Shown here: positions 10,633 to 38,610 of the stretch, one piece after another
Numbering within the stretch: the first letter of the stretch is position 1
How the letters are laid out: each line of letters opens with the position of its first letter
Source: Argopecten irradians
Taxonomy: Eukaryota > Mollusca > Bivalvia > Pectinida > Pectinidae
DNA: 64,000 bases
Reading direction: 5' to 3'
NCBI RefSeq assembly: GCF_041381155.1
Contig: NC_091147.1
Span: forward strand, 32,878,909 to 32,942,908
Made by a program: the position numbers and the translations under genes
Notes under the pieces: generated by a model
The model's input: only the letters and a program-made list of their open reading frames with translations
What the model was told of the DNA's origin: nothing
Database searches by the model: none

Positions 10633-12331
10633 TAAGGTTGTCAGGTTCATTACATACAGATGGGCTATGCAGCTTGACCTTTTATATACTGTAATTTTTT
10701 TTATTTAGACAATACGCAAAGTTTTCAATCTGTTTATATAACGTAACACAATCTACAGGTACATTATCCTTGGCTTGGGAGACGTTTTAAATTGCTGCAT
10801 TATATTTTGAAGACACAAGATGTCAGCGTAGAATAAAAATGTAATTTTGTTCGTCCATGTGACACAGAGAATATTTTTTTTACAAATATAGACGATATCA
10901 GCGGTCTTTATTATCTGCATTGTTTGATACGACCCGACCTACATATCGTGACAACATCTAACCACCATGAAATCGAAGCGTTCTATTGACTTACGATAAA
11001 GTCAATATTTACGTGTGGTTTGTAGTTACGCCAGTCGACAGTGACAAAGAGATATTTCGCGGAATTGAAACCAGCACGCGTGTTATATAGTATAATGTAG
11101 GTAGATCAATACACTAGCGAGTTTTACATGTAGTTCTCTTTTACCAAATAGTTCTATTACCAAGGCAAGTACATTTAAAGTATTTATCAAGTCAAATCAC
11201 CATTAAATTCACAAACCCCACAGCCTTGTAAGGTGCTCAATATTCAGTGTGTATATAGATAACTATAATACAGGTTTTTTTACTGATGTAATCTTGTGTG
11301 TTTTTGGATAATTTTGATAATTACACTCTAATTAAAACAGATAATTGGTATGTACTCTTTGTTTACAATGTACAAAACGTGTTTAAGCCTGTGTACCGTC
11401 GTGTTCTGATGGGTCACAGCCATCCGATGTATGAATACATCCATAACATTTAGTTATTTCAAATAGCTAGCTTAAATAAATCTGTGCTTACTCGACCGAG
11501 TGTACTACAATCACATGAATTAGTACTGACTTGTATCAATTATTGATTATCGATTATTTTAACCGGAAGTGAAGATGTACCTGTACTTATCTCATCTGTC
11601 TTACGATCACGGATAGCGCGTGCTTGGCAACGCTCGATCGATTGGTACAGCTGCTGATCTGTATACCCATGTACCCACACTGACGTGTGTAAATAAAAAG
11701 GATATGAATGGTCTCACCCGGACCGCTACTTTGACATTCTCCGCCATTATTGGTTCCCTTGCTTATTCCTGCAACAAAACTCTATTATCGCTGATACGCA
11801 CTGTCTGACATTTCATATAAATCCAGTTCTGGTTAAACCTTTTTCCTTTGTAACATCAAAATCAAATGATGTTTCAATTTTGTCTCGTCATACACAATCT
11901 AGCTGCCTGTAGACATCATAGCCCTGTCGTTAGGTTGTGGTGTGTTTGAATTTTCCGAGAAATCGTCTTTACGTGTTATAACAAAAATCACACACTGAGT
12001 TATCTTGACAACACATGGAAATATTTTGACAGGCCGATAACAACAAATCCACTTGGCAATACACACGTGTGTTAGCGTAACTAAATATACCGGTACACAA
12101 AAGACCGACACACGTACATATACCCTTTTGGTAAATGGTTTGTGGAACTATATACATATATTGATCAGCGTTTCCTTTGAGGCGTAAACTCGCTGTGTAT
12201 ATTCTCATGTCGCCACACAATAGTCGGGGAGATCTACCCGTCTGAAAGGTTTCAAGGCGATTGTTAAAATGCCAGGCTGTGACACGAAACTGTCCTCCAC
12301 TGTTACATTTGGTTTTACTGCTAAACGACAT
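10633..12331. other. Non-coding stretch
   Basis: Short open frames at 11620-11808 and 11899-12331 show no domain, splice pattern or composition supporting a gene. No repeat structure stands out until the 46-bp array begins. Confidence 0.5.
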
Positions 12332-15300
12332 TACAAGTCTGGTCAGCTTTATTTACATTGGATTTTACTGGTATACGAAATTACATGGTTAGCTTTATTT
12401 ACATTAGGTTTTACTGGTATACGACATTACATGGGTAGCTTTATTTACATTAGGTTTTACTGCTATACGACATTACATGGTTAGCTTTATTTACATTAGG
12501 TTTTACTGGTATACGACATTACATGGTTAGCTTTATTTACATTAGGTTTTACTGGTATACGACATTACATGGTTAGCTTTATTTACATTAGGTTTTACTG
12601 CTATACGACATTACATGGTTAGCTTTATTTACATTAGGTTTTACTGGTATACGACATTACATGGTTAGCTTTATTTACATTAGGTTTTACTGGTATACGA
12701 CATTACATGGTTAGCTTTATTTACATTAGGTTTTACTGGTATACGACATTACATGGTTAGCTTTATTTACATTAGGTTTTACTGGTATACGACATTACAT
12801 GGTTAGCTTTATTTACATTAGGTTTTACTGCTATACAACATTACATGGTTAGCTTTATTTACATTAGGTTTTACTGCTATACGACATTACATGGTTAGCT
12901 TTATTTACATTAGGTTTTACTGCTATACGACATTACATGGTTAGCTTTATTTACATTAGGTTTTACTGCTATACGACATTACATGGTTAGCTTTATTTAC
13001 ATTAGGTTTTACTGGTATACGACATTACATGGTTAGCTTTATTTACATTAGGTTTTACTGGTATACGACATTACATGCTATACGACATTACATGGTTAGC
13101 TTTATTTACATTAGGTTTTACTGCTATACAACATTACATGGTTAGCTTTATTTACATTAGGTTTTACTGGTATACGACATTACATGGTTAGCTTTATTTA
13201 CATTAGGTTTTACTGCTATACGACATTACATGGTTAGCTTTATTTACATTAGGTTTTACTGGTATACGACATTACATGGTTAGCTTTATTTACATTAGGT
13301 TTTACTGGTATACGACATTACATGGTTAGCTTTATTTACATTAGGTTTTACTGGTATACGACATTACATGGTTAGCTTTATTTACATTAGGTTTTACTGG
13401 TATACGACATTACATGGTTAGCTTTATTTACATTAGGTTTTACTGGTATACGACATTACATGGTTAGCTTTATTTACATTAGGTTTTACTGGTATACGAC
13501 ATTACATGGTTAGCTTTATTTACATTAGGTTTTACTGGTATACGACATTACATGGTTAGCTTTATTTACATTAGGTTTTACTGGTATACGACATTACATG
13601 GTTAGCTTTATTTACATTAGGTTTTACTGGTATACGACATTACATGGTTAGCTTTATTTACATTAGGTTTTACTGGTATACGACATTACATGGTTAGCTT
13701 TATTTACATTAGGTTTTACTGGTATACGACATTACATGGTTAGCTTTATTTACATTAGGTTTTACTGCTATACGACATTACATGGTTAGCTTTATTTACA
13801 TTAGGTTTTACTGCTATACGACATTACATGGTTAGCTTTATTTACAATAGGTTTTACTGGTATATTACGCTATATGACATTACATGGTTAGCTTTATTTA
13901 CATAAGGTTTTACTGGTATATACGACATTACATTACATGTATGGTTAGCTTTATTTACATTAGGTTTTACTGGTATACGACATTACATGGTTAGCTTTAT
14001 TTACATTAGGTTTTACTGGTATACGACATTACATGGTTAGCTTTATTTACATTAGGTTTTACTGGTATACGACATTACATGGTTAGCTTTATTTACATTA
14101 GGTTTTACTGGTATACGACATTACATGGTTAGCTTTATTTACATTAGGCTTACTGGTATACGACATTACATGGTTAGCTTTATTTACATAAGGTTTTACT
14201 GGTATACGACATTACATGGTTAGCTTTATTTACATTAGGTCTTACTGGTATACGACATTACATGGTTAGCTTTATTTACATTAGGTTTTACTGGTATACG
14301 ACATTACATGGTTAGCTTTATTTACATTAGGTTTTACTGGTATACGACATTACATGGTTAGCTTTATTTACATTAGGTTTTACTGTATACGACATTACAT
14401 GGTTAGCTTTATTTACATTAGGTTTTACTGGTATACGACATTACATGGTTAGCTTTATTTACATTAGGTTTTACTGGTATACGACATTACATGGTTAGCT
14501 TTATTTACATTAGGTTTTACTGGTATACGACATTACATGGTTAGCTTTATTTACATTAGGTTTTACTGGTATACGACATTACATGGTTAGCTTTATTTAC
14601 ATTAGGTTTTACTGGTATACGACATTACATGGTTAGCTTTATTTACATTAGGTTTTACTGGTATACGACATTACATGGTTAGCTTTATTTACATTAGGTT
14701 TTACTGGTATACGACATTACATGGTTAGCTTTATTTACATTAGGTTTTACTGGTATACGACATTACATGGTTAGCTTTATTTACATTAGGTTTTACTGGT
14801 ATACGACATTACATGGTTAGCTTTATTTACATTAGGTTTTACTGGTATACGACATTACATGCTATACGACATTACATGGTTAGCTTTATTTACATTAGGT
14901 TTTACTGGTATACGACATTACATGGTTAGCTTTATTTACATTAGGTTTTACTGGTATACGACATTACATGGTTAGCTTTATTTACATTAGGTTTTACTGG
15001 TATACGACATTACATGGTTAGCTTTATTTACATTAGGTTTTACTGGTATACGACATTACATGGTTAGCTTTATTTACATTAGGTTTTACTGGTATACGAC
15101 ATTACATGGTTAGCTTTATTTACATTAGGTTTTACTGGTATACGACATTACATGGTTAGCTTTATTTACATTAGGTTTTACTGGTATACGACATTACATG
15201 GTTAGCTTTATTTACATTAGGTTTTACTGGTATACGACATTACATGGTTAGCTTTATTTACATTAGGTTTTACTGGTATACGACATTACATGGTTAGCTT

Positions 15301-16048
15301 TATTTACATTAGGTTTTACTGCTATACGACATTACATGGTTAGCTTTATTTACATTAGGTTTTACTGGTATACGACATTACATGGTTAGCTTTATTTACA
15401 TTAGGTTTTACTGGTATACGACATTACATGCTATACGACATTACATGGTTAGCTTTATTTACATTAGGTTTTACTGCTATACGACATTACATGGTTAGCT
15501 TTATTTACATTAGGTTTTACTGGTATACGACATTACATGGTTAGCTTTATTTACATTAGGTTTTACTGGTATACGACATTACATGGTTAGCTTTATTTAC
15601 ATTAGGTTTTACTGGTATACGACATTACATGGTTAGCTTTATTTACATTAGGTTTTACTGGTATACGACATTACATGGTTAGCTTTATTTACATTAGGTT
15701 TTACTGGTATACGACATTACATGGTTAGCTTTATTTACATTAGGTTTTACTGCTATACGACATTACATGGTTAGCTTTATTTACATTAGGTTTTACTGGT
15801 ATACGACATTACATGGTTAGCTTTATTTACATTAGGTTTTACTGCTATACGACATTACATGGTTAGCTTTATTTACATTAGGTTTTACTGGTATACGACA
15901 TTACATGGTTAGCTTTATTTACATTAGGTTTTACTGCTATACAACATTACATGGTTAGCTTTATTTACATTAGGTTTTACTGGTATACGACATCTCAAAT
16001 GGGGGTTTTGGGAAAAGGACAGACTTAGCTTTATTTACATTAGGTTTA
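12332..16048. repeat. 46-bp minisatellite array, about 80 copies, highly uniform
   Basis: Unit begins TTTTACTGGTATACGACATT and continues ACATGGTTAGCTTTATTTACATTAGG. Copies are nearly identical; the main variant is TACTGG versus TACTGC. A compound variant in which a short GCTATACGACATTACAT piece is inserted occurs at about 13075, 14860 and 15430, and a disturbed patch lies at about 13850-13945. First and last units (12332-12420 and 15990-16048) are diverged, as expected at array edges. Confidence 0.97.
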
Positions 16049-26798: not shown

Positions 26799-26930
26799 AT
26801 GAATACCCGTTTGATGGTTGTCCTACTGGTAGGCGTGGCCTATTATGTATATTATCCCTTCCCGCCTGACGCCGATGCACCATGGAAACAGATGTTTTCT
26901 ATGGTCCTAATAAGGACGATAAATCACGTG
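26799..26930 (+). CDS. AADAC-like exon 1 (residues 1-44)
   Basis: ATG at 26799 follows an acceptor (TTGATTACAG) by 20 bases. An in-frame ATG at 26757 lies upstream of that acceptor and is ignored. The exon encodes the membrane anchor MNTRLMVVLLVGVAYYVYYP and ends in phase 0 at CACGTG|GTAAGA. Confidence 0.9.
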
Positions 26931-29900
26931 GTAAGATTCATAAATATTCATTGGAAGAGGGAGCTCAAAGATATGTTTTTAAAGACGTTATCTTTTTATC
27001 TGAAATATTGTATTTAATGTTTCATTATTTTTGTAAGATAACAATAATGATGGAAAATCCCTCCATATGAAATACAATGTACCTTTTGGTTTCATATTAA
27101 TATTGATCGTGTCAAAATCAAACCAAACATGTTAAAAGTATTGTTTCTTAGGAATTTTACTCATCTGGAGATTCGTTACATAATTTTACAGTGATTCAGA
27201 TTAGGGCTAAATTTAGGCCATTTTGTCCTAATATTTTTTAAAATCCTTAATTATTCTAATAGAGATTGTCCTAACAAAGTGCTCTCAGTATTTGTATATC
27301 AATCTGAAAAATTGAATTATATTATAAACATCAAATTGTTATTATATCATACAGTGTGTTTTTGAAGAAACCATCGGCTATTCGTCCACAATACAATGCA
27401 GACAATGGTTTTCTCGTGCTCTCGACACAAACCGTGGGGACCTGAGTGATACGGACCTTGAGGTAAGATTTAGTTATGAAATAAAGTACTTATCCTTAGA
27501 CGACATTGTTTACGTTTGATAAAGTCCAATTTTTAAGTGAATTTCCATAAGTGGTAATATTGAGAAAAGTGCATCGTCGGAGACCCACGGGTGATCGCAC
27601 TACACTAGGCTACACTTAGTAACGTTAGTGAATATATGGGTTACCGAGGATGAGAAAAGTGATAAGTTATATTTTAGCTGTAAACAAATTCTGAGAATAA
27701 GTATGTATCCATCCTCGATATTTCAGGGGTTACTATCACTGTTGTTATATCCACCCGCACAACTAAAGGTTCGGTGTGCTACAACAAATGACAAAGGTCA
27801 GGCGGCTAGCTACCAGATTAAGATACTCCCATGCATCCACATCATTCTCACGCTCATTTAAAATAAATACTGATAACGTTTATACGCAAAATTTACAAGA
27901 AGCAAAATGCCTCGTACTTGTATTAGTTATATTATATATTATAGCTATATTATAGCTAAAATAACTTCCTGAACCAAGAGTGTCTAAACTCCCTACCAGA
28001 TTAATTAATGTACCAACAATTTTATTCAACGTTAGCGTTACTATGGCGACATTCAATTGTCGGAAATCCAAATGTATTGTTAGTAATCATCTATATTAGA
28101 TAACATTTTCCACTAATCTTATGGTCGCGTGGAGGTCGATACAAATAGCATATGGACTTGGGCTTTACTCTTTTTAGAAATTACAACTAATATTAGTTTT
28201 GTAACGTCATACTGGCATTGATATTGTTGCACCATTGAACTCCTCCGTGCAAACGTTGAGTTCACCAGGGTAGTGTTCTATGGCCATCCTTTTTCTTGTT
28301 AGTAGCATGCGTTTCAAATGATCCTATTGACATTTGTTCAAAGAAACTATTTATTCAATATAAAGATTATGAATCTTTGATTCGATCAATATGGTGTTAA
28401 ACTACCATGGTGAATAAAAATGTACGACCTCAGTCATAATTTAAATTAATCAGAGTGGTATAACACGATAAAACAAATATTGGCTTCGACAAAGGCACAC
28501 ATTTTTGTACATTGATGATATAATATTTACATTTATGCTTTCTTTTTACTATGTAACCATACCAGGCAACTGGGCAATCGTTTACACTTGCGTAAACGCA
28601 GAGGTTGCCGCGCAAGAATACACACACCGAAACGCTGATTTCCGCAAGTACTTTGAATGCGCATTCGGTGAGGCCTATTGTATTTGTATTGAAAATATAC
28701 AATGCAGTGAATGTATGAATGTAATGGAAATTTTTAATTAAATATCAGGAAATAAAATATTGTATAAATGGAATGAAAAAAGATGAAGTTGAAGTCAGCT
28801 GTTCCGGGATTCCATCAATTGATCGGCTGTTACATCAATCGTATGGCGTTGAAAAATACGAAGTTTTATTTACCGGAACACTTAATTTAAAATGGTCAGT
28901 CGAGATGTAAATATAAGGAATGATGTTTATTTTTTGTTGTTTACTGGTGTGTAAACTACATAGGCAGGGGAAATCCTATGCCATTGCATCCACATAGGGA
29001 GTGAATGCAGTAACGCGCTCCACGGGATATGTAGATAGCTTCTGCTATTCATAGCCGCTATGAAAATTAGAAAAATACGTTCAATTCATATATTTACATT
29101 AGAATAATTTATGCTAATAAAAATATTGAAAGGTTATTATATTATATTTAAAATTATGACACCCATATACGACGAGAAACGAGATTAATGGAACAGCTGG
29201 ATGACAAAGTCGTTCCACAACGTCGCGTTTTCAAGCTTCCGCCTTCCGGTCGACCTTTTTAGCTCGCCTATTCGAAGAATAGGGGGAGCTAATGTTGTCA
29301 CCCCGGCGTCGGGGTCGGCGTCTGCGTCAGCGTTGGCGTCCCATTTCACGTTAAAGTTTTTGAGCAAGTTTCTGTTTCGTCAATTGTTTAAGCTTAAGTC
29401 ATCATAAATGTTTATGATTTTATTTTCCTAATGTGTATGGATGCTGAACGTGATAATACAACCATTTTGGGGGCCTTTAGGGGTTTTTGAGTCTGTTAAT
29501 TTGTCATATTTCCATGTTAAAGTTTTTGAGCAAGTTTCTATTTTGTCTATTGTTTAAGATTAAGTCATCATAAATGTTTATGATTTTATTTTCCTAATGT
29601 GTATGGATGCTGAACGTGATAATACAACCAATTTGGGGCCCTTTAGGGAGTTTTTGAGTCTGTTAATTTGTCATATTTCCATGTTTAAATAGTAAATACT
29701 TGTACATCAACTTCTTCTGAATAGGAGAGCTTTGCTGTTCTCCAACAGCTCTTGGTTTTTTTTTGCAAATTACAAACGATGAACAGAAAATATAGTTAAA
29801 ATAAGATTTGATTGAATTATTACAGTAAACCTAAGTTGATTCGATATCAAGAAACAACACATTAAAGATTATACATTAAAACATTATGGGAGACTATTTT

Positions 29901-32900
29901 TTATTGATATGAAACTGGCGTGATTTTTGAAATCAGCTGATCGATGCACGAGAATCGTTGTATTCATAGTGTTTTCATAGTGTTTTCATAGTGTTTTCAT
30001 AGTGTTTTCATAGGCAAATGTTGGTTTTTTTCATAGGCAAATGTTGGTTTTTTGTCAGTTGGTTGATTCATGTAGTTACGAAACACTCAGAATGTAGATA
30101 TATTGTATTAACCCTGGCTACGCTGCTGTAGGTAATTTGGTCTTTTGGTGCACATCAATAGAAGTTATTAGTCAGTTTTTATTCTCTCCTGAAATACCAC
30201 TACTACGACACAGGTGTGGATATCACAACATCCGGAACTCCTCCGGGAATAGATATTAGATAGATTCTCGCGATTATACCCGAAGAGTTCAGGATGGATA
30301 TCACAACAGTGTTGGTAACTCGTGGAATATCGCGGAAGTACTGTCCCTGAACACAGGGGGCCAACTCAATGAAAATGGATATTGTCATACATTGTTTTGT
30401 ATTTGGTGGATGGGCTGATGAGTATATATGACAGTCATGTGATTTTTTTTCCAAAAATACCAGATTTGAAAAATTATTAAAAAATCGGGATATTTACTAT
30501 AAAACAGAGAAAGGGACGACAGTCGCCATATTGGATTTTTTACCCCCACCTCGATTAAAGTTAATTTTTTCACAATAGTATACCTTTTTTCCTAGAGTCA
30601 TAGTCACGCATCAGTCCTCCGATAATCCATAATTACACACATACCATGCAAAAGCATATAAACGATGTCTATATAGTCAAACGCAATATTTTAATCCAAA
30701 ATTACCGGCGCTTTCTGACTTGTGACATCGAAAGCAACGTTCTAGTGAAGAGCGATTAGAGTGACTTCCCCTGCAATGTCATTCAATGGGTTTAGTCAGA
30801 GGTATTCCGATACGTTTTAATATTCAAATTTTCCGCGAAAACAAACGTATCGGAATATCTCTGATTAAACCCATTGAATTACACTGCAGGGGAAGTCACT
30901 CTAGTCGCTCTTTACTAGGACGTTGCTTTCGATGTCACAAGTCAGAAAGCGCCGGTAATTTTGGATTAAAATATTGCGTTTGACTATATAGACATCGTTT
31001 ATATGCTTTTGCATGGTATGTGTGTGATTATGGATTATCGGAGGACTGATGCGTGACTATGACTCTAGGAAAAAAGGTATACTATTATGAAAAAATTCAC
31101 TTTAATCGAGGTGGGGGTAAAAAATCCAATATGGCGACTGTCGTCCCTTTCTCTGTTTTATAGTAAATATCCCGATTTTTTAATAGTTTTTCAAATCTTG
31201 TATTTTTGGGAAAAAAATCACATGACTGTCATATATACTCATCAGTCCATCCATCAAATACAAAAATGAATGACAACATTCATTTTCATTGAGTTGGCCC
31301 CCTGTGTCCCTGAAGCCTAAGCACACTCCTCTGGACTAGCCACTGTTGTTTTGATAATGCATAGCTCATGTACAACTAGCTTATTAAGTCCATTTCTTTT
31401 CGTTGAGTTTTTTTTCTATGTGACTAGTAGTTTTCAACTTGATGCGCTTGGAAGCAGGTAGGGCGCTAGAATTGTACCTGCTGCATCTATTACATAATTG
31501 TAAAAGGATGTTTTATTTTCTCTTCTTCCAAACTTCTCCGTTGACACCGTCTCAATCTTGGCCTTTTGTTGAGCGCTCGCCCTTATGAGACAGACTCTCA
31601 ACCCCACTGTGTGTAGTATGTGGTGACAATAGTACAGCTCGCTAAAAAGAGCAAAATAATACTAATCATTCACAATCGATACTTTGTACCCCCCAAATTT
31701 TTTAAATGAAGCACACATACATCGATGTTTATACGCTGTTGTTACGTCACCACAGCGGAAACAGAGAGTGTTCGTTTCGAATGAAGTTTCGCGGCGGGAG
31801 ATTGTTACATCATTCATAAAGTTCAATTGATGTAGTCACAGGTAACCTTCATCAACAACATTCTCTCGAGTGCTGAAAGTCACTCCCAATAACAAGTGCA
31901 AATCCATGGCGCCTTTTGATTGGTCGGTCATGTTTAAACTTATGCTGCTGAAACTGTGATTGACATCAAATTTCATCAGACGCGTGTACCTATTTGAAAA
32001 CATTTTAAAAACCAAAATCGCTTCCACGAACAAAATGTATGTACATGATACACACGTCAGATTACATACGTTAGATAGCTCTCTGAGCGTAAGAAGGCAT
32101 AGGTGTGCACGTGTCCGAGGGCGGAAATGGGTCTATTTATTTTGATAAAATCTCTCGCCGTGAAACTTCATTCGAAACGAACCCTCTCTGTTTCCGCCGG
32201 GTTGAATTCATTGTATCATTTCGACACATTATACAAGATAAGTTTTTAGCAGACAACGTGTGTTTGTTTTTTTACTTAGTGACCTCTTTCCGACAGCGCA
32301 CATATGCTTCTCCTGTCCACTTGTGTTCTCGCCGTTCCGATGATAACAAACATTTTACCGACTTAACACATTAAACATATTGCTTGTCGGTATTTTTAAA
32401 TTTTCTTATTGCGGGTAAGTTTAAGTTTAGGATATCTAAGAAGTTACATAGCACTTGGCTTCTGTTTTCAACGGTGAAATCTAGAGTTATAGTCCCTTTA
32501 AAAGCAAGAAGATACTGACCATCTCCACGAATAATTCATGTTGTAGAGTACGAAACTTGTTTGTATCCGAAAAGATAACAGTATACATGTTTACAGGTGA
32601 CGGAACCTTTATTTGGTGGCGTAAAAGTTCGACTTTATACTCCGAAGGATTCCAACACAGGACGTAGAGGATTCGTGTATGTACATGGGGGTGGATGGTA
32701 TCTAGGAAGCGTCAGTAAGTATTTTTATTGATTTTTTTTATTTATATGCATTTATTTTTGCTTTACAAATCAAAAGAATCAGCTTTTGTGAAACATCGAG
32801 CGTCCTAACTACCGATCACTTGTTTATAGTCTAAAGTTCAAACGAGAACAAGCAAAAGAGAAGCTTTTAAATTCTCAGAAATTATATTGAATTTCACCCA

Positions 32901-35900
32901 CATGGTCTCATCAAGTATGGTCATCAAAGGAAAGTTAATTTAGGGAAGAATAAAGCTCCAATGTTCTTTTTAAAAACGCTTTCGTTTGTATCGATTTTGA
33001 TTTCGCCAAATCTAAAGACAAGACATTAATGCGAACACTATTTATCACATATCTAGCCTTTCCAGCCATGTTAGATCCGCTTAGTCCGCTAAACCTGCCT
33101 ATATTATTAGGTTTTTTTTTTTTTTCCCCCTAATATATAGTCAGCTCGCGGTACCTCTTAAAAATGTGAAATCGTAGGCCAGATTTGGCCTACGCTACGT
33201 CAGCGGCATATTTCTAATATATCGTCCATGCAATGCCGGGAAAACGTACACATACCTTTATATTGGGATCTTATGTACTCCTTTGCCCCCATGTTACATC
33301 CCATTTATGAAATTAAACAACTGTGTACAATGAAATACTTCCGAGACCCTTCTATTTCACACATTTGTAATGGCCGCCGTATACACATTTAGTAGAGCAA
33401 ACGGCAGCCAATCAACTTCGCTTCCGGTTTTATTTTTAAATATCCACGTGTAGTTGAAAGATAAACAAAATTCTACCGTGTATATGCTACATGTATATGC
33501 AACGTGAATATCGCGAAAGTTATGCGGTACCAGCAATAGTCGTGTTCAATTTGAATATTTGACAACATGTCGTGTATGTCGACCATGATTTTACTTTAAA
33601 AAACTCTAACTGGCTAGCATTTTGTTTATCTTTCAACTACACGTGGTTTTTTAAAAATAAAACCGGAAGCGAAGTTGATTGGCTGCCGTTTGCTCTACTA
33701 AATGTGTATACGGCGGCCATTACAAATGTGTGAAATAGAAGGGTCTCGGAAGTATTTCATTGTACACAGTTGTTTAATTTCATAAATGGGATGTAACATG
33801 GGGGCAAAGGAGTACATAAGATCCCAATATAAAGGTATGTGTACGTTTTTCCGGCATTGCATGGACGATATATTAGAAATATGCCGCTGACGTAGCGTAG
33901 GCCAAATCTGGCCTACGATTTCACATTTTTAAGAGGTACCGCGAGCTGACTATATATTAGGCAAAAAAAAAAAAAATAAAAAAAGCCTAATAATATAGCC
34001 TTTCCAGTTGATTAAGATCCGCTATGTATGATAACACTATTCATCACGTGTCTAGCCTGTTACATAGTCTGAAGGCCCGTTAGTCCGAAGGCCCAATAGT
34101 CTGAAGGCCTGTTAGTCCGAAGGCCCAATAGCCTGAAGGCCTGTTAGTCCGAAAGCCCAATAGTCTGAAGGCCTGTTAGTCCGAAGGCCCAATAGCCTGA
34201 AGGCCTGTTAGTCCGAAAGCCCAATAGTCTGAAGGCCCGTAAGTCCGAAGGCCAAATAGTCTGGAGGCCCAATACATGTAGTCCGAAGGCCCAATAGTCT
34301 GAAGGCCCTTTAGTCCGAAGGCCCAATAGTCTGAAAGCCCGTTAGTCCGAAGGCCCAATAGCCTGAAGGCCTGTTAGTCCAAAGGCCCGTTAGTCTGAAG
34401 GCCTATCAGGCCGTAGGGATAAAAGGGTTTTAGCTGACTATACATGTTACGTGATATTACTTGCGACCGAATTTATTTTGCACAAAAATGTTGATACCAC
34501 GTTTGTATTATATATGGGGCTATTTTGAATCAAAATGTTTCTTACATATCTGAGAAATGGTATCAATATGTCCATTTCTGCTGTTGTGATACATACTTAT
34601 CATTACTCCGTGTTTAGGTACGTTTGACGCCAAGACACGAGAGATTGCTAGAGCTCTGAAGGCTGTTGTTGTATCGATTGAGTAAGTACTGTAACGTAAA
34701 CAACTATTCACGTCAATTAAAAAAACACCATATTTTCAATTTGTTATTTTGAATGCTATATTATATCAATTTTAAAAACCTTGAACTTCGTTGATCATAC
34801 GAAAACACAAAAAAAAAACAAAAACAAGCAAGAAAAGCTAATGTTAAATTGAGAATAATTACCTGTATTTTTCAAAGTTACAGACTATTCCCGAAATAAT
34901 TGCCTGTATTTTTAACAGAAACAGACTAGCCCCGGAATAATTACCTGTATTTTCATCGTTACAAACTAGCCCCGGAATAATTACCTGTATTTCCCACAGA
35001 TACACATGAACCCCGGAACAATTACCTGTATTTTCCACAGTTACAGACTGGCCCCGGAATAATTACCTGCATTTTCCCCGATACAGACTAGCCCCAGAAT
35101 AATTACCTGTATTTCCCACAGATACACATATTAGCCCCGGAATTATTACCTGTGTTTTCCACAGATACAAACTAGCCCCGGAATAATTACCTGTATTTTC
35201 ACAGATACAGACTGGCCACGGAATAATTGCCTGTTTTTTCCACAGTTTCAAACTAGCCCCGGAATACTTACATTGTACCTGTATTTTCCCAGATACAGAC
35301 TAGCCCCGGGATAATTACCTGTATTTTCCACAAATACAGACTAGCCCCGTAATAATTACCTGGTTTTTTTCGTCAATACAGACTAGTCCCGGAGTAATTA
35401 CTTGTATTTTCCACAGTAATAGACTAGCCCCGGAATAATTACCTGTATTTTCGCAAAAATAGACTGGCCCCGGAATAATAACCTGTATTTCCCACAGATA
35501 CAGACTAGCCCCAGAATAAATACCTGTATTTTCAATAGATACAGACTTTTCCCGGAATTATTGCCTGTATTTTCCACAGCTTTAGACTGGCCCCGGAATT
35601 ATTATCTGTATTTTCCACAGATACAGACTAGCCCCGGAATAACTGCCTATATTTTCCACAGTTACAGACTGGCCCCGGAATATTTACCAGAATTTCCTAC
35701 AGATGCACATTGGTCCCAAAATAATCACCTGTATTTTCTACAAATACAGACTTACACCGGAATAATTACCCGTATTTTCACAGAAACAGACTGGCCCCGG
35801 AATAATTACCTGTATTTTCACATATACAGAATAGCCCCGGAATAATTACCTGTATTTTCTACAAATACAGACTAGCCCCGAAATAATTACCTGTATTTTC

Positions 35901-38610
35901 ACAGAAACAGACTGGCCCCGGAATAATTGCCTGTATTTTCTACAAATACAGACTAGCCCCGGAATAATTACCTGTATTTTCCACAAATACAGACTTGTCC
36001 CGTAATAATAACCTGTATTTTCTACAAATACAGACTAGCCCCGGAATAATTACCTGTATTTTGCACAAATACAGACTAGGTCCGGAATAATTACCTGTAT
36101 TTTCCACAACTCGTCCTCATTTCACATTATTTAACAAAGAGATTGAAATTGTAGATTCGTTTTCTTATCTAGGAATATTGATGAATTACAATGGGAGTTT
36201 TCATAAAACGAAATTGAAACTGTTGGAACAGTCAAGAAAAGCTATGTTTGCTGTTTACAAGAAAATAAGAAACATCCCTCTTCCTATTGATCTCCAGTTA
36301 AAAGTATATGATTCCCTTGTTTTACCAATATTCATTTACAGTTTTGTAAACGTATACTCGGCGTTAGGAAAAGTACGTGTAATTACATGGTATATGGTGA
36401 ATTAGGGAGATTCCCTCACTATATAGAGGTTAAAAACAGAATTATTATGTTCTGGCACAAATTGATTACTACCGATAATCTTTCAAGTAATATATATAAG
36501 TTGATGTTATACTTGCAAACAAATAATATCATGGAATTCAAATGGATGCATAATGTTAAAAATATTTTTGAAGAAACTGGTTTGAATTATATATGGGACT
36601 TCCAGAATGTATGTACATATAATAGAGAATATTTAAAATCTATCGTAAAACAAAGATTACAAGATCAATTTGAACAAAAATGGTTTAATGATATAGAGAA
36701 TTCATCAAGAGGTCGTACTTATTCTATTTTTAAAAGTAATTTTGAATTTGAAAAGTATCTTGTGAAACTAAAGCCAATAGATAGACAAATCATCATAAAA
36801 TTCAGAACCTCGAACATGCACTTACCTATAGAAACTGGAAGATGGACCGGGACCCCTGAAGTAAATAGAACTTGTAATCTATGTTTTACTGATATTGGAA
36901 ACGAATATCATGATTTGTTTCAATGCAGTAATGAAATGGTGAAACGTTTATGAGTAATGTATATACCAAGTTACTATTATAGAAACCGTAGTGTTATCAA
37001 AATGAAAGGCCTGTTTACTATATGTAACATTACTGTTCTGACAAATATATGTAAGTTTTTGAAAAAAAATGAAAAACTATTGATTGAGCATGCACATCAC
37101 TAATACATATTGTAATGCACTGTTGCGCTATGGGCCCAATATACTTGTATGTTTATATTATGTATAGTGACCTCCTGTTACATACTTGTCTGAGAGTGAA
37201 ATAAAATCTGAAATCTGAAATCAGAATAGCCCCGGAATAATTACCTGTATTTTCTACAAATACAGACTAGCCCCAGGTTGATTACATGTGTTTTCCACAA
37301 ATACAGACTTGCCCCGGAATAATTACCTGTATTTTCCACAAATACAGACTAACTCCGGATAAATTACCTGTATTTTTCACAATTACGGACTTACCTCGGA
37401 ATAATTACTAGTATTTTCCGCCCGAGATAATTACCTGTATTACCTGTATTTTCCATTGTCCATAGTTACAGACTGGCCCCGGAATATTTACCTGTATTTT
37501 GCACAGTTACAGACTAGCCCCGGAACACCCGTTCCCTGTACCACTACAGGACTGTGTTGATGCTACCACCCATTTCCTGAAACATGCCGAGGATTACGGA
37601 GCTGATCCCAGAAGAATAGGAATAGGAGGTATAGCTATGGGGAGGGAGGGCCATGATGAAATTTAATATGATTCACAACAATAAATAAGCAAAACCAATA
37701 GATAAAAATAAAAATCTGATGGACGAGAAAAATACTTCGATACAAAAATAATATATAAGTATGAAACAGATGAAAACAAAAACAACACAAAATTCTGCAT
37801 TTGCATTTGTGACGTCATGTGTTTACAATATCTCACTATTGATAACTTTCCACAACCGAGACAACTCTGTAATATGCAAAGACGGACTACATATGTAAAG
37901 TATAGCCAGGGTCATCTGTGTATGTAACGATACCAAATAAATCACAATGTTCACCTTTGTTTACAGGTGATAGTGCGGGAGGAAACCTCGCTATGGCTGT
38001 AACACTAAAACTAGCTCAATCAAGGGACACAACTCTGCCGGAACTACGTACATTATCCATGGTGTACCCTGCACTGCAAATGGTTAATTTTAACTTGCCA
38101 TCTTATTTGAAATTTACCGATGGACCATTCTTGCTTAATAAACGTTTAATGGTTTCAGCCTGGTTAAATTACGTCTTCGGCCATGAGAATGATTTCCACG
38201 AGTTCTTCGACAATAAACACATATCACCAGTATTAAGAAACAAAGTGCAACGAATAACCAATAGGGCATTGTTGCCGGAAAGCGTTCAGCTTGAAGACAG
38301 TGATAATTACAACGAGAGTTTAGCTAGAGATGTCGAAAGTATAATATCTAACTCATTGATTTCACCATTGTTATGTACTGACGACGATTTACAGAAACTC
38401 CCGAAGATACTGTTATTTACAAGTCAGTATGACCCACTCACTGACGAAAGTCTTATTCTTGTCAAACGTGTAAAGAACCTGGGAATTCCAATTCTACATA
38501 AGCATTTCACAGGTGTTCAACATGGGTTCTTCGCCTCAAGGTTCGCAACTATGATGAAATCAAAACAGGCTTTAACAGACTATATAGAATTTTTAAAGAA
38601 GGAGCTTTAA
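26799..38610 (+). CDS. Arylacetamide deacetylase-like serine hydrolase (AADAC/NCEH1 family), six coding exons
   Basis: Coding exons: 26799-26930, 27355-27462, 32597-32714, 34618-34681, 37507-37628 and 37967-38610. All are joined by GT-AG introns with consistent phases (0, 0, 1, 2, 1), giving 395 residues; human AADAC is about 400. Residues 5-21 form an N-terminal hydrophobic anchor followed by FPPDADAPWK, as in the family's type II ER-membrane proteins with a luminal catalytic domain. The oxyanion-hole motif HGGGW is at 110-114, DYRLAPE at 141-147, the nucleophile elbow GDSAGG at 182-187 (Ser184), Asp337 in QYDPLTDE and His367 in GVQHGF. The alpha/beta-hydrolase triad is complete and its spacing matches AADAC. 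Such enzymes hydrolyse acyl esters or amides of lipids and xenobiotics. The exact substrate is not deducible. Introns are loaded with foldback elements and minisatellites, and intron 4 carries about 37 copies of its own acceptor. Confidence 0.95.
27355..27462 (+). CDS. AADAC-like exon 2 (residues 45-80)
   Basis: Acceptor ATCATACAG, donor GAG|GTAAGA, 36 codons, phase 0 at both ends. It begins CVFEETIGYSS and ends DLSDTDLE. This matches the helical cap region that precedes the beta-sheet core in the family. Confidence 0.85.
28527..28960 (+). mobile_element. Dispersed repeat, copy A (partner at 45836-46445)
   Basis: Shares long blocks with the reverse complement of 45836-46445: GGCAATCGTTTACACTTGCG, a GCGCAAGAATACA-like block, ATGAATGTAATGG, a GTTCC-GG-TTCCATCAA-TGA block, GTATGGCGTTGAAAAATACG and finally GGAATGATGTTTATTTTTTG. 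The two copies lie in opposite orientation about 17 kb apart. No transposase frame, so it is an unclassified non-autonomous element. Confidence 0.75.
29257..29755 (+). mobile_element. Interspersed element with internal 166-bp tandem duplication
   Basis: Begins TTTTTAGCTCGCCTATTCGA with a GGCGTCGGGGTCGGCG-like GC-rich head and ends GAATAGGAGAGCTTTGCTGT then CTCCAACAGCTCTTG. The middle (29350-29515) is repeated almost exactly at 29516-29682 (AGTTTTTGAGCAAGTTTCT and onward). The AGCTC-CCTATTCGAAGAATAGG head resembles a repeat common in invertebrate genomes. Family assignment is from memory and uncertain. Confidence 0.65.
30351..31307. mobile_element. 957-bp near-perfect palindromic foldback element with 6-bp target duplication
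   Basis: Starts ACACAGGGGGCCAACTCAAT and ends ATTGAGTTGGCCCCCTGTGT. The two arms of about 475 bp match almost base for base around a centre near 30828. It is flanked by CCCTGA at 30345-30350 and again at 31308-31313, a clean target-site duplication. No transposase is encoded; frames such as 31087-31269 and 30385-30573 are the same sequence read on the two arms. The high arm identity points to a recent insertion or ongoing arm homogenisation. Confidence 0.95.
31440..31620 (-). mobile_element. Dispersed SINE-like repeat, copy 2 (reverse)
   Basis: The reverse complement carries GAGCGCTCAAC, TTTGGAAGAAGAGAAAATAA, a CCTTTTACAATTATGTAATAG block and GCAGGTACAATTCTAGCGCC, matching 61950-62115 in order. 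Diverged and non-coding. Confidence 0.65.
31753..32198. mobile_element. Small inverted-repeat element (about 446 bp)
   Basis: Left end CAGCGGAAACAGAGAGTGTT followed by CGTTTCGAATGAAGTTTCGC; right end GAAACTTCATTCGAAACGAA followed by CCTCTCTGTTTCCGCCGGG, its complement. Only the outer 50 bp or so are clearly inverted. Non-coding, MITE-like. Confidence 0.75.
32597..32714 (+). CDS. AADAC-like exon 3 (residues 81-119 plus one base), oxyanion hole
   Basis: Acceptor TGTTTACAG, donor CGTCA|GTAAGT. The exon encodes the first beta strands and ends FVYVHGGGWYLGSV. HGGGW supplies the oxyanion hole of the hormone-sensitive-lipase-type hydrolases. Confidence 0.93.
33099..33998. mobile_element. 900-bp near-perfect palindrome
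   Basis: Starts CTATATTATTAGG followed by a poly-T run and ends with a poly-A run and CCTAATAATATAG. TATATAGTCAGCTCGCGGTA pairs with TACCGCGAGCTGACTATATA, and GGCCGCCGTATACACATTTA with TAAATGTGTATACGGCGGCC. The centre is near 33549, with a short unpaired core. Non-coding. No simple target duplication was found at the ends. Confidence 0.92.
34066..34412. repeat. 16-bp/32-bp minisatellite, about 21 half-units
   Basis: Alternating half-units AGTCCGAAGGCCCAAT and AGTCTGAAGGCCTGTT, so the basic period is 16 and the higher-order period 32. A variant with TACATG inserted occurs at about 34270. Open frames read from it are period artefacts. Confidence 0.95.
34618..34681 (+). CDS. AADAC-like exon 4 (residues 120-141, split codons at both ends)
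   Basis: Acceptor CCGTGTTTAG, donor GATTGA|GTAAGT. It encodes TFDAKTREIARALKAVVVSI and ends two bases into the Asp codon completed by exon 5 (DYRLAPE). Confidence 0.9.
34852..37506 (+). repeat. 41-bp minisatellite made of AADAC exon-5 acceptor copies, about 37 units, interrupted by a LINE
   Basis: Each unit contains TGTATTTTCCACAG followed by TACAGACTAGCCCCGGAA and TAATTACC. The true exon-5 boundary at 37506/37507 reads TGTATTTTGCACAG|TTACAGACTAGCCCCGGAAC, so the units copy the polypyrimidine tract, the AG and about 19 exonic bases. In the frame set by exon 4 a typical unit would encode D-YRLAPE followed at once by TAA. Some units keep CAG; others have CAA, which removes the acceptor. The array spans 34852-36109 and 37223-37506, with the LINE fragment between. 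Confidence 0.95.
36110..37222 (+). pseudogene. 5'-truncated LINE (non-LTR retrotransposon) fragment inserted in the array
   Basis: The reading frame starting near 36119 (KEIEIVDSFSYLGI) and running through LLEQSRKAMFAVYKKIRNIP and LKVYDSLVLPIFIYS is the carboxy-terminal part of a LINE reverse-transcriptase protein. At about 36339-36345 a deletion joins IYS directly to a segment beginning FCKRILGVRKSTCNY in a shifted frame, and the protein continues at 36387-36953 to RTCNLCFTDIGNEYHDLFQC, the terminal Cys-Cys-His-Cys motif. A 3' UTR follows, ending in a repeated ATCTGAA tail. The endonuclease and the catalytic reverse-transcriptase motifs are missing, so it is dead. No clear target duplication; two or so bases of the array may be lost. 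Confidence 0.85.
37507..37628 (+). CDS. AADAC-like exon 5 (residues 141-182)
   Basis: Acceptor TTTTGCACAG, donor ATAGGAG|GTATAG. It begins YRLAPEHPFPVPLQDCVDAT and ends RRIGIG with the first base of the Gly before the catalytic Asp-Ser-Ala. This is the only copy in the 41-bp array that continues as coding sequence after YRLAPE, which makes it the functional junction. Confidence 0.93.
37629..37966. other. AADAC-like intron 5
   Basis: 338 bp, AT-rich, bounded by GTATAG and TTTGTTTACAG. No repeats or other features seen. Confidence 0.8.
37967..38610 (+). CDS. AADAC-like exon 6 (residues 182-395), catalytic Ser, Asp and His
   Basis: The exon opens with the completed GDSAGGNLAMA elbow (Ser184) and runs to TAA at 38608-38610. 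It holds ISPLL, the QYDPLTDE acid (Asp337) and GVQHGFF (His367), and ends YIEFLKKEL. A reading frame that starts at 37918 is only intron read-through. Confidence 0.95.

Follow-up and report, generated by a model that had tools for sequence, protein, structure and literature searches.

The AADAC-like gene in the window (the whole 64,000-nt stretch of Argopecten irradians DNA that was analysed) carries at the end of its intron 4 an array of 37 tandem 41-bp copies of its own intron 4/exon 5 junction (window 34853-37506), and the nearest database protein fits splicing at the last copy. The array is a minisatellite of a known class, the 'mirages'. Comparable arrays are present in paralogues and in unrelated genes of the same genome. 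An earlier, sequence-only reading of this DNA had correctly recognized a splice-site minisatellite, but missed both its membership of a known class and its recurrence in other genes of the genome. We regard it as probable that the array is a near-neutral junction minisatellite, harmless because the copy beside the body of the exon is used, by exon definition.

The host gene and its acceptor array

The host is an AADAC-like gene, whose six coding exons join into an intact Abhydrolase_3 protein (Pfam; Table 1). The nearest database protein, P0001, is 'arylacetamide deacetylase-like isoform X2 [Argopecten irradians]', and is the one member compared here of a cluster with six others. P0001 is identical to the product of the window gene if exon 5 begins at 37513, and not if it begins at 37507. 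At the protein level, P0001 therefore equals the gene spliced at the last copy. This copy contains two AGs 6 nt apart in the same frame, of which isoform X2 uses the second, giving SIELAPE instead of SIDYRLAPE, without the conserved Tyr-Arg. The Pfam score was 156.7 bits for P0001 and 176.3 bits for a first-AG version without exon 2, two queries that differ. Because DYRLAPE or DYRLTPE is kept in the related scallop proteins P0002-P0005, and because the database protein is labelled 'X2', we infer that the first AG, 37507, is probably used as well as 37513. The sequence-only reading had placed the real junction in the last unit, at 37507; P0001 indirectly supports the use of the last copy, but isoform X2 starts at the second AG.

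Table 1. Features of the window gene, its paralogue and the surveyed exon ends. Window coordinates unless another sequence is named.
Feature	Coordinates	Strand	Description
Coding exon 1	26799..26930	+	spliced translation = P0001
Exon 2	27355..27462	+	open AG..GT candidate; confirmed by P0001 identity
Exon 3 (HGGG motif)	32597..32714	+	P0001 identity
Exon 4	34618..34681	+	ends ..VVVSI + GA, donor GTAAGT; P0001 identity
Left part of acceptor array	34853..36109	+	31 decoy acceptors, 41-bp unit; TRF, copy-by-copy parse
Insert splitting the array, ~1.1 kb	36110..37217	+	long open frames, TCTGAAA-type tail
Right part of array	37218..37506	+	6 decoys (4 CAA, 1 disrupted, 1 TAG), then the real-acceptor unit
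Exon 5, first AG of last copy	37507..37628	+	SIDYRLAPEHPF..
Exon segment common to repeat unit	37507..37525	+	TTACAGACTAGCCCCGGAA; encodes YRLAPE
Exon 5, second AG, 6 nt downstream	37513..37628	+	SIELAPEHPF..; database isoform X2
Exon 6 (GDSAGG, YDPL, QHGFF)	37967..38610	+	P0001 identity
Paralogue intron 4 double array	L043 3430-9316 = C2:28498430-28504316		donor array, then acceptor array
Donor mirage	L060		51 bp x 13
Donor mirage	L071		39 bp, at least 6.9 copies
Donor mirage	L082		95 bp x 2.3
Acceptor mirage	L073		46 bp, at least 5.9 copies; over ICDFG motif
Acceptor mirage	L093		50 bp x 2.1
Acceptor mirage	L102		85 bp x 2.5

The 41-bp unit consists of ~22 nt of the intron end, which include a candidate branch point resembling UAAUUAC, a pyrimidine stretch and CAG, followed by the first 19 nt of exon 5. 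TRF reported period-41 arrays at 34853-36108 (30.6 copies) and 37218-37525 (7.5 copies). A wrap-around parse counted 37 acceptor-equivalents 5' of the 37506/37507 boundary, 31 to the left of the insert and 6 to its right, matching the earlier count of about 37 decoys ahead of exon 5. The array is present within the span 34852-37506 given by the sequence-only reading, which left the ~1.1-kb insert at ~36110-37217 unmentioned. We take the insert to resemble a 5'-truncated LINE; a comparison of it with Pfam gave no match. No donor array was found by TRF at exon 4 of this gene.

The copies are arranged in tandem, head-to-tail, and the array adjoins the authentic boundary. The 41-nt junction matched the left array with a best identity of 37/41, whereas 1000 shuffled versions of the junction reached at most 26/41 in the array, and the best match to the junction in the rest of the 64,000-nt window was 23/41. 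A search for the unit in the 845.8-Mb genome, in which very common words were skipped and the best candidates alone were scored, revealed no second locus, all 20 matches lying at this array. No phage match for the array was found. The proposal that the array derives from the acceptor junction of its host gene is supported. Accidental similarity to the junction, or a dispersed satellite located by coincidence ahead of exon 5, would draw some plausibility from the abundance of tandem repeats in scallop DNA (~27% of the window, 17333/64000; 21.7% of another scallop genome, in the accessible text of PMC10225492), but it is contradicted by the shuffles and the genome search, as well as by the preserved frame and junction register, and we give it next to no credence.

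The junction AG is kept in 19 of the 37 copies (16 CAG, 2 TAG, 1 AAG) and lost in 18, 14 of which read CAA. The earlier suggestion that CAA removes the acceptor has to be softened to a weakening, since 12 of the 14 CAA copies retain another in-frame AG 6 nt further on (28/36 among all copies). When the decoy AGs at both offsets were joined to exon 4, 41 of 47 led to a stop within ~20 codons, typically as YRLAPE-stop or LAPE-stop, in agreement with the prediction that most upstream acceptors would truncate the protein after YRLAPE.

Scoring of every unit with a 3' splice-site model had also been proposed, and was carried out with an approximate matrix. The best AG scored at or above the real 37507 site in 20 of the 37 decoys, and by that score the site itself therefore does not select the last copy. 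Within 24 nt, 3/37 decoys have a strict match to the branch-point motif yUnAy, while the real site has such a match (TTTAC) 17 nt upstream, so sequence may also discriminate in the window array. In the paralogue with a double array, at C2:28494368-28505246, such discrimination would hardly be possible.

The window contains several further repeats. In intron 3, an inverted repeat (33114-33976; 362-nt arms, 98% complementary, 139 nt apart) has the look of a foldback or MITE-like element, and a 16/32-bp minisatellite (34064-34404) lies ~200 bp 5' of exon 4. A candidate partial duplicate of AADAC exon 6 within intron 3 was dropped (BLASTP E 0.55). A 46-bp array at 12303-15993 enters with its minus-strand end a Cys-rich open frame (11969-12352), and its border, where TTTAGCAG is followed by TAAAACC, resembles another acceptor mirage. 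It was rejected as a second mirage of the window, since no homologue was found and an exon is hence unconfirmed.

Junction arrays in paralogues and unrelated genes

Related genes of the AADAC-like family are present in the same genome. The paralogue with the double array gave six matches to P0007 with 87-100% identity, those below 100% running, by our reading, beyond the exon borders. At the start of its intron 4 lies a donor array (40-bp unit, 38.2 copies by TRF), and at the end an acceptor array (49-bp unit, ~4 kb). By pattern counts, 36 of 38 donor-like copies carry GT, and 81 of 83 acceptor-like copies end in AG. In a column parse, the acceptor array showed no AG loss (A in 83/83 and G in 82/82 readable cells); of the 38 copies in the donor array, 2 lacked the G and 1 the T. 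P0007 reads ..AVVVSVGYRLAPEF.., as does the gene when the first donor is spliced to the last acceptor, the outermost pair; with an inner site, each copy would be expected to contribute a further 40 or 49 nt. P0001 and P0007 both fit the earlier supposition that the last of dozens of near-identical sites is picked, although database proteins used as splice evidence may partly rest on prediction. The reading frame from exon 4 of this paralogue stays open for 281 codons into the donor array.

In contig C207 (68 kb; L042, L045), the region C2:28.488-28.505 Mb recurs as a noisy copy in reverse orientation, in which intron 4 is shorter. This copy has 22 donor-like units, 12 of them with GT, compared with 38, and 5 acceptor-like units, of which 4 end in AG, compared with 83. 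This contig is perhaps the other haplotype, and may point to length polymorphism or to assembly trouble.

A third gene, at C2:28135 kb, has a donor array (61 bp x 4.6). Mirages are thus present at 4 of the 12 ends of intron 4 in six AADAC-family genes, which are the family of the finding and not a random sample. No mirage was found at intron 4 of the genes at C2:28117 kb and C14:36111 kb, and intron 4 of the gene at C2:28488 kb shows no more than a single partial, exon-like copy, which was not counted. Also uncounted was a 19 bp x 2.1 AT-rich repeat just past the exon 3 donor (L024); L042 is the C207 copy. Across the family, the intron 4 arrays have unit lengths of 41, 49, 40 and 61 bp in differing registers, and were therefore taken as separate events.

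Exon ends of kinase, sugar-transporter and P450 genes were also surveyed. In this small sample 6 of 110 ends carry mirages, five at kinase exons and one at a sugar-transporter exon (Table 1), with none among the 14 P450 ends. The rate expected from array density is ~0.9% per exon end, based on ~21 distinct arrays with ~45-bp units in 104 kb; the ~21 are our own count, obtained from 25 listed arrays by merging pieces that had been cut at fetch borders. Against this expectation, the 6/110 gave p 0.00054, and the 4/110 that passed a strict cut (at least 2.5 copies and at least 80 bp) gave p 0.018, both values being rough in view of the sequential sampling and our choice of exons.

The 80 kinase ends belong to 40 exons that we picked from 142 matches, mostly short open frames with a stop-free match. 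The 16 sugar-transporter ends come from 8 of 9 loci, the near-full-length locus being left out, and the 14 P450 ends from 7 of 12 loci among 100 matches, with five near-full-length loci left out. The TRF score cut was 40 for kinases and 50 for sugar transporters and P450s. All survey ends are ends of homology matches, and are thus putative splice sites. Arrays near a junction but not over it (L070, L083, L096) were not counted, nor was one overlapping a stop-containing match (L063), whose two ends stay in the denominator. Arrays reaching the pyrimidine tract without exon sequence were likewise uncounted: those at L062 1266-1496 and L103 13-254 (gene strand) touch the tract without AG or exon, and are junction-adjacent rather than mirages. 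Because the exons were chosen and the sampling was sequential, the survey is suggestive of junctions being favoured over the array-density expectation, and is not proof of such a bias.

Origin and tolerance of the arrays

Slippage or unequal exchange would have duplicated a short segment across the 3' splice junction of exon 5, and the array would then have expanded through ordinary minisatellite turnover, the ~1.1-kb insert, probably a truncated LINE, arriving later inside it. Splicing would use the copy attached to the body of exon 5, as the last copy alone precedes a full-length exon of normal size with a donor close by. The inner copies would be mostly ignored, or their products lost, and low-level splicing to decoys may occur. 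Use of this copy would be what allows the array to persist. Under exon definition the outermost copy would be chosen, whereas an inner copy would be expected from a rule that simply takes the 'first AG after the branch point'. The arrays at donors and at acceptors in paralogues and in unrelated genes, including the one double array, would have arisen by the same process.

The sequence-only reading had suggested that the array lowers or tunes splicing. In such a regulatory role, the decoys would titrate the splicing machinery or yield decay-prone truncated transcripts, with the repeat number setting the level of the AADAC-like product. The early stops reached from most decoy AGs, the strength of many decoys by the approximate matrix, and the frequent retention of the second AG would all suit this role. 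However, like arrays are present in unrelated genes, the decoys show no sign of maintenance, the junction AG being gone in about half of the copies (18/37), and the available text on amphioxus counterparts reports regular splicing without interference (PMC3087553, PMC3902484). The claim of lowered or tuned splicing is therefore unsupported, and we consider a regulatory array improbable.

The loss of AG is uneven along the array. AG is kept in 16 of 21 distal copies and in 3 of the 16 proximal copies, nearest the exon. Among the 41 columns, variability is highest at the -1 G (15/37 not G, compared with a column mean of 10.2%), and this column splits along the array more strongly than any other. 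A permutation of the split (300 shuffles) gave p 0.02 for the column and 0.033 family-wise, a weak test, as the split was seen first and the copies are related by local duplication. Clustering along the array at p ≤0.05 was observed for 5 of the 41 columns, -1 and four others. Together, the -1 variability and the proximal AG loss hint at selection against decoys near the exon, in which case the array would not be strictly neutral.

Decoys near the exon might accordingly have been silenced by change, either through selection or through an inverted repeat perfected by CAG to CAA, so that it is a degraded array that is tolerated; we judge this rather unlikely. Besides the proximal loss and the split at -1, it can point to the CTGTATTT..AAATACAG hairpin, which pairs in 257/294 cells compared with 81-160 of 287-295 when slid, and to the CAA unit, which as DNA folds better than 99/100 shuffles. 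The paralogue acceptor array, on the other hand, keeps its AG throughout all readable cells, and tolerance therefore needs no degradation. Local higher-order duplication could also have spread CAA from few events, and four columns other than -1 cluster in the same way. A unit tree, tried for counting AG losses, gave 10 changes and no firm reading, leaving 28 of 33 inner branches open. In addition, the wide-context predicted fold pairs the real AG (0.97) above the decoy mean (0.75).

Two roles for hairpins were considered and rejected. Local folds were stronger for many decoys (-6.5) than for the real site (-3.8), but with 150 nt of context the real AG is paired above the decoy mean, and masking therefore fails to distinguish the last copy. 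DNA hairpins were not borne out as the usual origin of these minisatellites by the consensus units of nine arrays, which ranked from 5 (the 96-2745 unit) to 100 of 100 shuffles; just the CAA variant of the 41-bp unit ranked 1.

The near-neutral junction minisatellite can be extended to a wider and more tentative proposal, which we hold to be possible but short of an even chance: that scallop splice junctions are birthplaces of minisatellites, with arrays at several percent of exon ends, above repeat density, and with the spliceosome taking the outermost site among dozens of near-identical ones at either end of an intron. If true, it would amount to a natural genome-wide exon-definition experiment, in which sequence is constant and position varies. 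The choice of a true site among identical neighbours is usually studied via engineered duplications. Live genes that offer dozens of near-identical sites make exon definition and first-AG scanning directly testable against each other. The extension of mirages to a mollusc and to unrelated families bears on intron lengthening, splice-site drift and gene function in repeat-rich genomes. The possible AG-loss gradient towards the exon, if general among arrays, would measure the cost of a decoy. The double array and the recurrence across genes are the parts that deserve follow-up.

Comparison with known systems

Tandem alternative acceptors of the NAGNnAG type have two AGs a few nt apart, both of which are used. 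The last scallop copy is alike in that its AGs lie 6 nt apart in frame and the second is used by isoform X2, but differs in that the AG pair repeats along the array.

Among molluscs, the abalone TSSK1-like gene has in intron 3 a length-variable tandem repeat with a 27-bp unit (PMC6905558). Like the scallop arrays, it is a tandem repeat within an intron; its unit, in the accessible text of that paper, is not described as derived from a splice junction. No reports of mirages from molluscs were found among the matches listed, which comprised titles and the starts of abstracts and covered few subscription papers.

Mirages are described in amphioxus, in the available text of PMC3087553 and PMC3902484, as duplicated exon-intron boundaries in Adh3, the globins BflGb6 and BflGb9, troponin C and PGBD5, with undisturbed splicing, regular mRNA and instability of copy number; a 2002 Adh paper is known to us as cited there. 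These texts report mirages from amphioxus alone. As far as these texts go, the scallop and amphioxus arrays are alike in that the repeats span a real boundary at 5' or 3' ends, and in that AG or GT is kept in many but not all copies (19/37 AG in the scallop array). The hosts differ, a mollusc compared with a cephalochordate, and so does the scale: BflGb6 has 3-6 copies, whereas the scallop gene has 37 and its paralogue 38 donor-like and 83 acceptor-like copies, with Adh3 standing outside this comparison. In further contrast to the amphioxus cases as described, the scallop paralogue is affected at both ends of one intron, and the window array holds an insert and has its AG loss concentrated near the exon. 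What is new relative to amphioxus is the mollusc setting, the scale and the recurrence in several unrelated families, to which mirages are hereby extended.
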